64,000 nucleotides of DNA from Opitutaceae bacterium (GTDB lineage: Bacteria > Verrucomicrobiota > Verrucomicrobiia > Opitutales > Opitutaceae). This document shows positions 60,277-64,000 of this stretch, in pieces; the first letter of the stretch is position 1; each line of letters opens with the position of its first letter. The position numbers and the translations under genes are program-made. The notes beneath the pieces were generated by a model. It searched no databases, had not been told where the DNA came from, and saw only the letters and a list, made by a program, of their open reading frames with translations. The stretch covers positions 23,699-87,698 of the forward strand of contig JAUYAK010000029.1 of the NCBI GenBank assembly GCA_030693515.1, read 5' to 3'.

Positions 60277-61752
60277 TTATTGTTTTTTCCCGGCGCGTTT
60301 CGCCCGGCCCTCGGGTTGTGGCTGCGGCACGCGCGCGAGCTGAGCGAGCAGATCGCGGACGATCTCCGGGCGCTCGGCGGCGAGGTTGCGGGTCTCGTGC
60401 GGATCGGCCGTGAGATCGAAGAGTTCAGCTCGGCCGCCGGCGCGGTCGGCGATGAGGCGCCAGCGGTCGGTGCGGACGGTGCGATCGCCGTCGCTCCAGA
60501 AGCCGTGCGCGGGCTTGGCCGCGGGCGCGCGTGGATCGGCGAGCTGCGCGCGCAGGCTGCGGCCGTCGAGCGCCGCCGGCGGCTCGATCCGGCAGAGCTC
60601 GGCGAGCGTCGGGAAAATGTCCACCGTCTCGACGATCGCAGCGCTGGTGGCGCCCGGCTGGGGCAGGCCGGGATGGCGGATGAGCAGGGGCGAGCGCAGC
60701 GCCTGCTCGTAGAGGCAATGCTTGCCCCAGATGGCGTGCTCGCCGAGCAGGAAGCCGTGGTCGCCCCACAGGACGACGATGGTGTTGGATTCGAGTCCGG
60801 TCTCGCGGAGCGCATCGAGCACGCGGCCGATCTGCGCATCCGCGTAGCTTACACAGGCCGCGTAGGCGCGGCGGAGCTCGCGGGCGTAGTCCGCATCGGT
60901 GGCGGGATCGCGGCCCGCGTGGGCGTAGTTGCCGCGCAGTTCCCCGCTGTTGTGCCAGCCGGACGGCCACGCGGGCTGGGCGGCCGCGGCGGCGGGGAGG
61001 TCGGGCCCGCTGCCGGCGAGGTGGAGGTCGTGCCACTTCTGCGGCGCGGCGAAGGGGAGGTGTGGCTTAAAAAAGCCGACGCCGAAAAACCATGGCTGCC
61101 CGGATGCGGCGAGCTCGCGCAGCGTGGCGACGGCCTCGGCGGCGACCCATGCGTCGGGAAACGCGTCGTCGGGTCCGGCGTGGATTTGGAGCGGCGGCGA
61201 TTTGCCGGGTTCGCGCGCGGCGCCGCCCGCGTAGCCGTGCATGATCGCCAGCGGCGTGGGCCACGGGCCGCGCGGGATCGTGTGGCGGTCCCAGGCGCCG
61301 GGCAGCTCCTCGGGGCCCACGGCCCAGTCGCGGCCGGTGAGGCCGCCGGGGTAATGGCCGATTTTTCCGAGCGCGATCGTGCGATAGCCGGCGGCGCGGA
61401 ATGTCGCGGGCAGGCTGCGCGCGCCCCAGTCGGCGTGCGTGTCGCGGATGGCGTTGTTGCCGACGTGCGCCGGCTCGGCCGGGTAGCGGCCCCGCAGCAA
61501 GGCGCAGCGCGAGGCGCCGCAGGTGGGCGTCTGCACATAGTGGTGGCTGAAAATCCGCGCGGTCCGCGCAAACTCATCCATCCGCGGTGTGCGGGCGTGC
61601 GCCGCGCCGAGCGCGCCAAGGTCGTTGCGCAGATCATCGACGGCGAGGAAAAGGACGTTGGGCCGGGCCGGCGGCGTGGCGGCGGCGCAGGGGGCCGGAG
61701 CCAGGGCGACGGCGGCGGCGAGGGAGAGGCAGGCGAGGACGGGGAGGTGCAT
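60277..61752 (-). CDS. Sulfatase (iduronate-2-sulfatase-like), exported
   Basis: RPNVLFLAVDDLRNDLGALGAAHARTPRMDEFARTARIFSHHYVQTPTCGASRCALLRGRYP (CxASR motif). Confidence 0.92.
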   Translation of the reverse strand: MHLPVLACLSLAAAVALAPAPCAAATPPARPNVLFLAVDDLRNDLGALGAAHARTPRMDEFARTARIFSHHYVQTPTCGASRCALLRGRYPAEPAHVGNNAIRDTHADWGARSLPATFRAAGYRTIALGKIGHYPGGLTGRDWAVGPEELPGAWDRHTIPRGPWPTPLAIMHGYAGGAAREPGKSPPLQIHAGPDDAFPDAWVAAEAVATLRELAASGQPWFFGVGFFKPHLPFAAPQKWHDLHLAGSGPDLPAAAAAQPAWPSGWHNSGELRGNYAHAGRDPATDADYARELRRAYAACVSYADAQIGRVLDALRETGLESNTIVVLWGDHGFLLGEHAIWGKHCLYEQALRSPLLIRHPGLPQPGATSAAIVETVDIFPTLAELCRIEPPAALDGRSLRAQLADPRAPAAKPAHGFWSDGDRTVRTDRWRLIADRAGGRAELFDLTADPHETRNLAAERPEIVRDLLAQLARVPQPQPEGRAKRAGKKQ

Positions 61753-61829: not shown

Positions 61830-62130
61830 GCGCGGAGCGGCAGTGCCACTGGAAACAATGGGGCTGGTCCCGGCGGCGGCGGATGCTGCTGCGGCTGGGC
61901 GCCGATCTGTCGACGGTGCATCTGGCGTCGCGGAGTCGGAAAGGCTGCTGGCGGATGAGCACGAACAGCATCGCGACAAGTGCGTAGCCTTGGCGGTGCA
62001 AGCCGCCTTCACGAACGAGTGGTTGGGCCAACAAGGGGTGCCGGACCTGCCGGCGCTCTGGGTCGCTTATCATTACCCGCCGCCGCCGAAGACGGAGCCG
62101 GAAGCTCCGGCGCCGGCCGCGAAGGGGTAA
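61830..62130 (+). pseudogene. Group II intron reverse transcriptase/maturase, C-terminal fragment, frameshifted
   Basis: Frame 2: RQCHWKQWGWSRRRRMLLRLGADLSTVHLASRSRKGCWRMSTNSIATSA*, then frame 1: FTNEWLGQQGVPDLPALWVAYHYP; matches the conserved maturase C-terminus pattern (HWKxW...RSRKGYWRMS...NxWLxxQGVPxLxxLW..xHY). Confidence 0.82.
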
Positions 62131-62132
62131 AC

Positions 62133-62209
62133 ACGACGGAACCGCCGGATGCGGACCCGCATGTCCGGTGGTGTGGGGGCCGGGGGCTAATTCCCCCCGG
62201 CTACCCGAT
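62133..62209 (+). ncRNA. Group II (class C-like) intron domains V-VI and 3' end
   Basis: D5-like ACCGCCGGATGCGGACCCGCATGTCCGGTGGT hairpin, D6-like CCGGGGGCTAATTCCCCCCGG hairpin, 3' end CTACCCGAT. Confidence 0.65.
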
Positions 62210-62224
62210 TGGGCCACGGTGTCG

Positions 62225-62554
62225 TCATACAGCAAACTCCTTCGCATCTGGAATCATGCGCTGCTCTACCCACGCGGTAAGCGAATCGAACAGCTCAGTG
62301 TCGGGCCATCTCGGCTCTGTCTCTCGCTGAAAGGTCAAATGCACAACCGCGAAACTCGGTGCGGACTCTCCGAGGTAAAACAAAACGTCGTCACAATCTT
62401 GGCGAACGCCGATGGCTGCGACCGACCGACCAAACAGAACGTGTCCGGCGCACAACTCGCGTGGCAACTCGGCCTCTGCCTGTGACGCCTGCTCAGGTGA
62501 AGCCGGCAACCAAGGCTCGCGCCACTGAATCTGTGATGTGTCGAACTTTCTCAC
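62225..62554 (-). CDS. Integron cassette hypothetical protein
   Basis: GTG start just after an attC; MRKFDTSQIQWREPWLPASPEQASQAEAELPRELCAGHVLFGRSVAAIGVRQDCDDVLFYLGE. Confidence 0.7.
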   Translation of the reverse strand: MRKFDTSQIQWREPWLPASPEQASQAEAELPRELCAGHVLFGRSVAAIGVRQDCDDVLFYLGESAPSFAVVHLTFQRETEPRWPDTELFDSLTAWVEQRMIPDAKEFAV

Positions 62555-62567
62555 GGCGTGCGAAGTG

Positions 62568-62663
62568 GCCTAACGTCAGCGGTCAGCCACGCGCGGAGGA
62601 CGGACCTTGAGCAGCACCAAAAAGCGTGAACCCGCGCGTTGTGCTGTAGTGCTCTGGTTGGGC
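62568..62663 (-). other. attC site
   Basis: GCCTAACGTCAGCGGTCAGCCACGCGCGG...CCGCGCGTTGTGCTGTAGTGCTCTGGTTGGGC; cores inverted, imperfectly paired arms. Confidence 0.85.
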
Positions 62664-62670
62664 CTCTTCT

Positions 62671-63066
62671 TCATATGCCGTGCTCCTCGCCGAACTTCTT
62701 GATGAGGGCGGTGACCTGCGCGGCGACCTCGGCGGAGGAGAAAATATAGAGATCGAATGCATCGATGTCGTCCATGAATAGCCGGACTCTCAGCGGCACA
62801 ACTTGGCCTTTGAACTTCACGCTGAACGTGAGCTCCTTCTCTTCATCCATCTTAATCTTCTCCATCAACGCCGCGACCTTCTTCACTTCCGCGGGACCAA
62901 ACCCGGACTCGAATAGATGGGTCGCTCGCTCAAGAAACGGCGCCACATGCTTCTTGTCGAAGTTCGTGGAGGCTTCGTGAGCAGCTTCTTCTTTTGGAAG
63001 TGCGGCGCTCGGTGTTAGCAGCGCGAGGAGAGTAGCAAGTAATCTCTTCATGTTTTCTTTGCCCAA
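62671..63066 (-). CDS. Integron cassette exported hypothetical protein
   Basis: MGKENMKRLLATLLALLTPSAALPKEEA signal-peptide-like; bounded by attC sites (internal Met at 63051 may be the true start). Confidence 0.65.
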   Translation of the reverse strand: MGKENMKRLLATLLALLTPSAALPKEEAAHEASTNFDKKHVAPFLERATHLFESGFGPAEVKKVAALMEKIKMDEEKELTFSVKFKGQVVPLRVRLFMDDIDAFDLYIFSSAEVAAQVTALIKKFGEEHGI

Positions 63067-63126
63067 CGATTGAGGTCAGACACGGAGGGGCGAAGCCCCG
63101 GAGTTGTCTGTGCCGGCTGGATCGCC
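63061..63126 (-). other. attC site, one non-canonical core
   Basis: GCCCAACGATTGAGGTCAGACACGGAGGGGCGAAGCCCCGGAGTTGTCTGTGCCGGCTGGATCGCC. Confidence 0.65.
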
Positions 63127-63136
63127 TCTTTTTTCG

Positions 63137-63466
63137 TCAGAGCTCATAGGCTTCGATCACTTCCTCGCCATCAACTGGGATGGTGCTGGCAGAGAAAACG
63201 GTGCCGCAACCCTTGCATCTGACCTCTTCGGGCATGCGGCTCAGGCTTCCTTCTTTCTTCTGAGCGTCCGCAAGCAAGCTAGCTTCGGGGAGCTTCTGAT
63301 AATGCACCTTCCCTAAATCGAGACGGTAGATTGCGCCGGTAGCGGCCCCGACGAAAGTAGAGAAATCTCCGCCTGCACCACTTTCGAACATCTTGAACTC
63401 CGTCGCTAGGCCGCACTTTGGGCAAGTCGCGTGACAGAGGGAAATCGATAGACGTGAAGCTTTCAT
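63137..63466 (-). CDS. Integron cassette hypothetical protein with two CxxC motifs
   Basis: MKASRLSISLCHATCPKCGLATEFKMFESGAGGDF...EEVRCKGCGTVFSAS. Confidence 0.7.
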   Translation of the reverse strand: MKASRLSISLCHATCPKCGLATEFKMFESGAGGDFSTFVGAATGAIYRLDLGKVHYQKLPEASLLADAQKKEGSLSRMPEEVRCKGCGTVFSASTIPVDGEEVIEAYEL

Positions 63467-63472
63467 CTTTCC

Positions 63473-63604
63473 GGCGATCGACAAAGATGAGCCACGACCA
63501 CAGCCGGCGCGCCGCGTGCTGCACCGCAGTTGATGTAGTGATTCCAACAGATCATAGCACGCGGCGTGACGGCTGTGGTCGTTGGCTCTGGCGCCTTGTT
63601 GGGC
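63473..63604 (-). other. attC site (long), one non-canonical core
   Basis: GGCGATCGACAAAGATGAGCCACGACCACAGCCGGCGCGCCGCGTGCT...AGCACGCGGCGTGACGGCTGTGGTCGTTGGCTCTGGCGCCTTGTTGGGC. Confidence 0.8.
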
Positions 63605-63611
63605 CTTTTTT

Positions 63612-63971
63612 TCATTCTTCGGTGAGACGCTTCGCCAAATCGATCGCTCGGACCTCGAGCCCGCAGAGATTCACGTCCCAATTGGGGCCGACCATCGATC
63701 CATCAGCGTGCATGCCCTTCAGCCACGCGCCGATAAACTCATCGAGGGCAATCGCGGTAGGAACATACTCGCTCCAATCTTCTTTTTGGTGCCGCGCCGC
63801 ATACGCACGATCCGACCAAAACACCAAAACCGAGACGCCTTCATTTTCATGGGAAGGACAAACCGCCCAGCCGCCATCCGGCGACCGCAAGCCGTAGGCC
63901 TGGCCACTGTGGCGAACGCGGTCAACAAATCGGTCGTAGCTTTCCTGGGATGTGGCGCGATTTTGGAGCAT
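63612..63971 (-). CDS. Integron cassette DUF2750-like protein
   Basis: YDRFVDRVRHSGQAYGLRSPDGGWAVCPSHENEGVSVLVFWSDRAYAARHQKEDWSEYVPTAIALDEFIGAWLKGMHADGSMVGPNWD. Confidence 0.75.
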   Translation of the reverse strand: MLQNRATSQESYDRFVDRVRHSGQAYGLRSPDGGWAVCPSHENEGVSVLVFWSDRAYAARHQKEDWSEYVPTAIALDEFIGAWLKGMHADGSMVGPNWDVNLCGLEVRAIDLAKRLTEE

Positions 63972-63979
63972 CTTGTTTT

Positions 63980-64000
63980 GCCCAACGTCAAAGATGAGCC
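63980..64000 (-). other. Partial attC site at window edge
   Basis: GCCCAACGTCAAAGATGAGCC, same arm as the attC at 63473 apart from the core. Confidence 0.75.

Follow-up and report, generated by a model that had tools for sequence, protein, structure and literature searches.

At the right end of a 64,000-nucleotide stretch of DNA (the window) from the draft genome of an Opitutaceae bacterium, four open reading frames of 109 to 126 codons follow one another on the minus strand with attC sites between them. This arrangement raises the question of whether the frames are the cassettes of an integron and, if so, where the attachment site and the integrase that assembled them are located. A sequence-only reading of the window had proposed attC-bounded cassettes of a chromosomal integron in a possibly verrucomicrobial host; the latter was supported by placement of the genome in the family Opitutaceae.

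Cassettes and attC sites in the window

Core motifs alone provided weak evidence, as one perfect pair was observed and ∼1.4% of shuffled sequences yielded at least one. Folding with RNA parameters identified the bottom-strand stem at positions 63476 to 63604 as clearly exceptional relative to shuffles (z of −7.6), with z values of −2.0 and −0.8, marginally exceptional or not exceptional, for the other two attC stems. As motif counts and folding were too weak as proof of attC sites, a covariance model (R1) was trained on 16 attC sites, all of them from genomes other than that of the host. In a scan of the 64-kb window, all four matches within the array were on the minus strand and the sole extra match had an E value of 1.

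Starting from the contig end, the array (all on the minus strand) begins with the right part (L′ and R′) of a further attC site at positions 63980 to 64000, detected as a truncated R1 match of 19.6 bits (E = 0.0099). The cassette 1 frame (63612 to 63971; 119 amino acids) encodes a DUF2750 protein (PF11042; 1.1e-27) and precedes an attC site at 63473 to 63604 (40.3 bits; E = 8e-8), in which the R′ box GATCGCC (63473 to 63479) belongs to cassette 2. The frame of cassette 2 (63137 to 63466; 109 amino acids) contains CxxC pairs resembling those of zinc ribbons, falls below the family cut-offs, and is followed by an attC site at 63061 to 63126 (48.0 bits; E = 1e-9) with the variant R″ box GGCGATC at 63120 to 63126. 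Cassette 3 (62671 to 63051; 126 amino acids) has an N-terminal stretch resembling a signal peptide and no family above the cut-off, and its attC site lies at 62568 to 62663 (51.4 bits; E = 1.5e-10). No family was found for the 109-amino-acid product of the last cassette, cassette 4 (62225 to 62554). An Rfam match to mir-1756 at 63488 to 63589 was rejected, being merely the attC hairpin.

These matches placed attC-bounded cassettes where the sequence-only reading had put them, with E values of 1.5e-10 to 8e-8 for the three complete sites, and the covariance-model check for which it had called also returned the site cut off at 63980 to 64000. Its description of the core sites was correct as to the attC layout but not as to cassette 2, which carries the variant core GATCGCC/GGCGATC at both ends in place of GTTRRRY/RYYYAAC. 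The mismatches in the two attC sites flanking this cassette mirror each other at complementary positions. Possession by cassette 2 of its own core at both ends is direct evidence that the mobile unit is the cassette and not the intergenic segment. The expectation that cassette contents would be largely unsampled was also justified, with a Pfam family above the cut-off for one of the four, and models of defense genes produced no match to the four window cassettes. The GC content was 56 to 58% for the cassettes versus 67 to 74% for host genes. With at least two R1-detected attC sites bounding frames of the same orientation, no testable feature sets the window array apart from an ordinary integron array.

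A group II intron at the left border of the array

On its left side, the array ends at a group II intron that the sequence-only reading had overlooked. At the junction 62209/62210, the intron 3′ end interrupts the R″ box of the last attC site, the remainder of which (3′ exon TGGGC) is present in the sequence at positions 62210 to 62214 on the minus strand. Intron domains 5 and 6 and the 3′ end (..CTACCCGAT) span positions 62140 to 62209 on the plus strand, antisense to the cassettes (RF00029; 45.5 bits; E = 7.6e-7). They are preceded, at 61838 to 62139 on the plus strand, by the C-terminal maturase/X region of a reverse transcriptase (RT), located by tblastn with the intact 474-amino-acid RT of a related intron (locus L253; 373 bits for group_II_RT_mat). 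Residues 385 to 434 of this query aligned at 61838 to 61984 and residues 431 to 466 at 61996 to 62109, in two frames. As the window copy is 5′ truncated and frameshifted and no full group II RT was found in the assembly, this copy is termed a remnant. Past the remnant lies a sulfatase gene with its start at 61752.

Five near-identical copies of the intron 3′ end were detected in the host genome, one in the window and the others at the ends of contigs C58, C71, C79, and C113. Contigs C58, C71, and C79 each exhibited an attI site, one cassette, and an R″ box followed by the intron 3′ end, so that insertion into R″ on the bottom strand, antisense to the cassettes, was found at these three sites and at window position 62209/62210. 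At the start of contig C51, which has two attC sites, the intron 5′ end directly abuts what remains of an attC site (..GCTTGT/GTGTGCC on the bottom strand; 5′ exon ..CTTGT). The copy on C113 (right end of L020; G000:C113:41806-41945) was observed beside or inside a chromosomal gene with no attC site (..GGCGAGGAAA/ATCGGG). Repetition of this intron in the genome accounts for several of the contig breaks.

Group IIC-attC introns target R″ on the bottom strand of attC sites and follow a TTGT/T rule (PMC7923331). The host copies share with this class the R″ insertion on the attC bottom strand, the antisense orientation relative to the cassettes, and a TNGGC 3′ exon, and the CTTGT 5′ exon on C51 fits the rule (PMC7923331), whereas the window copy differs in being 5′ truncated and frameshifted; assignment to the class is based on the target and the antisense orientation. 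Related introns in other Opitutaceae genomes had a T-NGGC 3′ exon in most cases. One intact relative of 1,934 nucleotides encodes a 474-amino-acid group II RT and has the 5′ exon CTGGT, in line with the attC sequence of the Opitutaceae.

The integrase and attI site on contig C58

The right edge of the window is also the end of contig C2 (87,698 bp), and any intI gene on that side is, therefore, out of view. The array had been described as lying far from any visible integrase, which is true but solely because C2 stops at window position 64000. No attI-like sequence was found in the window even when three mismatches were allowed. The assembly, a draft of 130 contigs, contains one intact IntI, which is encoded at the end of C58, scored 393 bits against TIGR02249 (cut-off, 265), and is collinear through the catalytic domain with the solved IntI4 structure (2a3v, residues 13 to 318). 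The intI gene reads away from the contig end and is followed by attI (AATAACACTGTTAGGC) at 89 bp from the start of the intI frame, one cassette, an R″ box (GCCTAA), and the group IIC-attC intron. The C58 locus thus supplies an IntI that exceeds the cut-off and includes the IntI-specific region, an attI whose R box resembles GTTRRRY, and a cassette behind it. The proposal of a chromosomal integron was supported.

As for the further claim of the sequence-only reading, intI may lie past position 64000. An intact intI is situated on the end of C58 with attI and cassettes facing the break, and its position and direction would permit C58 to be joined to C2, to C51, or to another contig. On the other hand, attI sites number several in this genome, mostly with no intI, and four of the five intron 3′ ends are at contig ends; the window array may belong either to the intI-linked attI or to an orphan attI.

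Two other features of this locus were observed. The frame of the first C58 cassette (L011:13391-13906), adjacent to the intI-linked attI, is reversed relative to the array. The IntI has an N-terminal extension of ∼135 amino acids before the SAM-like domain (L011:13065-13469, minus strand), which has no Pfam match, is conserved in many members of the Opitutaceae, and is possibly an extra core-binding-like domain.

Copies of the attI core in the host genome and the family

The attI core AATAACACTGTTNGGC, which contains the R box GTTNGGC, was present in six exact copies in the host genome (two on C58 and one each on C71, C74, C79, and C117), and degenerate cores were detected on C124 and C128. 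In a second core search of this genome, all six matches were at cassette junctions. The core was found in 50 of 150 Opitutaceae genomes and a control pattern in none of the 150. As an exact pattern was used, degenerate sites are undercounted and the strict conservation of the core among sites is partly by construction. A core preceded by GSYB was not found in any of the ∼346 genomes sampled from the rest of the class, beyond the Opitutaceae, and cores without NGGC behind them numbered three in the 150 family genomes. Loci L176, L177, and L178, where attI cores are followed by something other than NGGC, may represent attI sites that are empty or have decayed. A location of the dispersed cores inside conserved structured RNAs was considered and rejected, as there were no Rfam matches.

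A total of 80 distinct attI-core sites were collected from the 150 Opitutaceae genomes. A full intI gene was located within ∼90 to 210 bp of 13 sites and intI remnants were retained at 6, while at least 56 had no intI within at least 1.5 kb upstream; for another 5, the upstream sequence was too short to judge. Nine orphan sites (attI without intI) came from six closed or nearly closed genomes (two each in G003, G004, and G005 and one each in G071, G046, and G113), indicating that such sites are not an assembly artifact. No IntI was detected in G003 or G071 at the strict threshold of 1e-60 applied in the family-wide search. This survey shows that the majority of the putative attI-borne arrays in the Opitutaceae are located away from intI, unlike the usual description of integrons.

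An inverted repeat centered 11 bp before the core was observed within the 20 bp upstream of it (e.g., GCTGCACTGAGTGCAGC and CCATACTGAGTATGG). Among 53 nonredundant sites, its arms paired more than shuffled partners (z of 3.75 at 1 of 16 offsets).

Cassettes were associated with the sites lacking intI. Of 66 sites, 50 had, in the nearest downstream GCCNAA[CT], a base complementary to that of the site's own core, versus ∼16 expected by chance (about one-quarter). Application of R1 to 69 attI-bearing loci, which were unequal in length and included some sites of the training set, yielded 104 attC sites, every one of them downstream on the attI strand and none upstream or on the opposite strand. 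At least one attC site was found at 33 of the 51 orphan sites scanned, and two of these had eleven (one in G003, with no detected IntI, and one in G041). By these measures, the predicted orphan attI sites bear real cassettes.

Origin of the orphan attI sites and a small divergent gene

The 150 to 290 bp upstream of many orphan sites were homologous within a genome and also resembled the region upstream of intI-linked attI sites (77% over 194 bp in G005; 92% over 165 bp in genus g46). Furthermore, 5′ pieces of intI persist beside some orphan sites, and intI remnants accompany attI in the host genome on C79 (81% over 99 amino acids) and C124 (47% over 192 amino acids). Due to the shared upstream homology and the 5′ intI pieces at some sites, an origin by intI loss is favored, and a scenario in which intI-attI platforms were duplicated and then lost intI would fit these data better than scattered off-target insertion. 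Two intI-attI platforms that are ∼97% identical over 1.5 kb were observed in the closed genome G049 (C1:2681428-2682777 and 2469594-2470958). This pair reflects the recent copying of an entire platform, presumed to be the first step toward an orphan attI.

A 290-bp upstream region common to orphan sites was considered as a noncoding element, but this was rejected because the region holds a small divergent gene. This gene, encoding a protein of ∼70 amino acids (sp70), is common to ∼10 orphan attI sites, and sp70 was present in 22 of the 150 Opitutaceae genomes. The sp70 loci comprise L146 (G106:C14:127907-128116) and ∼20 others, often in multiple copies (five matches in G106 and four in G129) that range from intact to frameshifted or cut. 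In most loci, the start codon is 89 to 92 bp from the attI core, which is sometimes degenerate, with conserved stretches in between. The gene stands where intI lies at intI-linked sites. The host genome has a decayed sp70 gene beside the C74 attI (G000:C74:15028-15156). The predicted structure (pLDDT of 82) consists of three strands and a C-terminal helix; searches of Pfam, PHROGs, PDB sequences, and PDB folds produced nothing significant. Any role of sp70 at attI is a guess prompted by its position.

Discussion

Our proposal, which we regard as probable when taken as a whole, is that the window stretch represents the distal end of a cassette array in a chromosomal integron of this Opitutaceae bacterium. 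The cassettes would have been taken up singly, through the action of an IntI tyrosine recombinase on an attI site to the right of the contig break; each brought its own attC. A group IIC-attC intron invaded the last attC site at R″ on the bottom strand, and its 5′-truncated copy now forms the border with the chromosome. One intact IntI is encoded on C58 beside an attI, and further attI copies carry cassettes but no intact intI. The additional attI copies most likely arose from duplicated intI-attI platforms in which intI decayed, and they may be, or may have been, served in trans by the remaining IntI. The window array probably hangs on one of these attI sites, with the link to attI lying out of view.

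Several other explanations of the array and the dispersed cores were considered. That chance inverted repeats lie between small open reading frames, with no integron involved, might be suggested by the paucity of perfect core pairs and by the two of three hairpins that were marginally or no more stable than shuffles, but is refuted by out-of-sample attC matches of 1e-10 to 1e-7 exactly at the frame boundaries and by the presence, at other sites of the host genome and across the Opitutaceae, of intI, attI, and attC sites belonging to the same families; its probability is negligible. A less easily dismissed explanation is that the window holds a simple CALIN, a decayed integron that has lost attI and intI and is unconnected to the C58 integrase. 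Contig C2 contains neither attI nor intI, the array ends on the left in a decayed intron, and CALINs are common and usually read as degraded integrons (PMC9024848). However, the contig stops inside an attC site, so that the attI-proximal end is missing and not shown to be absent, an intact IntI with attI is found at another contig end in a compatible orientation, and three attI-bearing contigs stop within the same intron; we therefore consider this explanation unlikely, though worth keeping in mind.

For the dispersed cores, the competing explanation is that these are off-target attG sites filled by IntI and not copies of attI. Insertion of cassettes at sites that are neither attI nor attC is known (Loot et al. 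2024, as cited in PMC12444791), and at many sites the junction has no more than a short attI-like part on its left side. Set against this are the ∼150 to 290 bp of upstream sequence that many orphan sites within a genome have in common with each other and, in some genera, with the intI-linked attI, the remnants of intI at some sites, and the constant distance of 90 bp to a small conserved gene at others. In addition, cores without NGGC are nearly absent (three in 150 genomes), and the core was not found in any genome sampled from the rest of the class. We judge an attG origin to be improbable.

A broader interpretation can be offered tentatively and with somewhat less than even confidence. The integron of the Opitutaceae would be a distributed one, with a single IntI serving attI platforms scattered over the chromosome, mostly without intI. 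Among these would be an old multicopy lineage with the sp70 gene in the position of intI, ∼90 bp from the attI core, and sp70 itself might work at attI, perhaps as an accessory factor that binds DNA or by regulating how cassettes are expressed.

Integrons are described as typically having one attI, beside intI, and arrays without an integrase are counted as decayed clusters because no attI models are applied beyond class 1 (PMC9024848). The Opitutaceae integrons share with the sedentary chromosomal integrons of the Vibrio and Xanthomonas type a TIGR02249 IntI, an attI beside a divergent intI, and attC-bounded cassettes, mostly of unknown function, that read away from attI. They differ in having short arrays, several attI sites per genome, most without intI, and an IntI with the ∼135-amino-acid N-terminal extension that lacks a Pfam match. 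As assembled, with the attI-proximal end missing, contig C2 holds a cluster of attC sites without a nearby intI, and both this contig and the orphan arrays would score as CALINs or single attC sites. In contrast to CALINs, the orphan arrays start at a recognizable attI and are, therefore, more than mere groups of attC sites, being platforms that lack nothing but intI. Such attI sites are invisible to IntegronFinder, since attI is modeled there for class 1 only (PMC9024848). Cassettes located away from intI are a feature shared with attG sites, but the left junction in the Opitutaceae is a repeated attI region and not an arbitrary genomic site.

For CALINs, Cury et al., as quoted in PMC8618304, list three sources: insertion off target, loss of intI, and rearrangement. 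Loss of intI from what appear to be duplicated attI platforms is visible in some of the Opitutaceae copies. Our literature search found no earlier description of integrons in the Opitutaceae, which is not proof that none exists. The window array itself adds a member to a familiar type, and the layout with many attI sites varies that type in a new way. An attI that is specific to the Opitutaceae and recognizable by sequence makes the question of CALIN origin directly testable, as well as whether CALINs stay live docking sites served in trans. If such service in trans does occur, one integrase would feed new genes into several positions of the chromosome at once.
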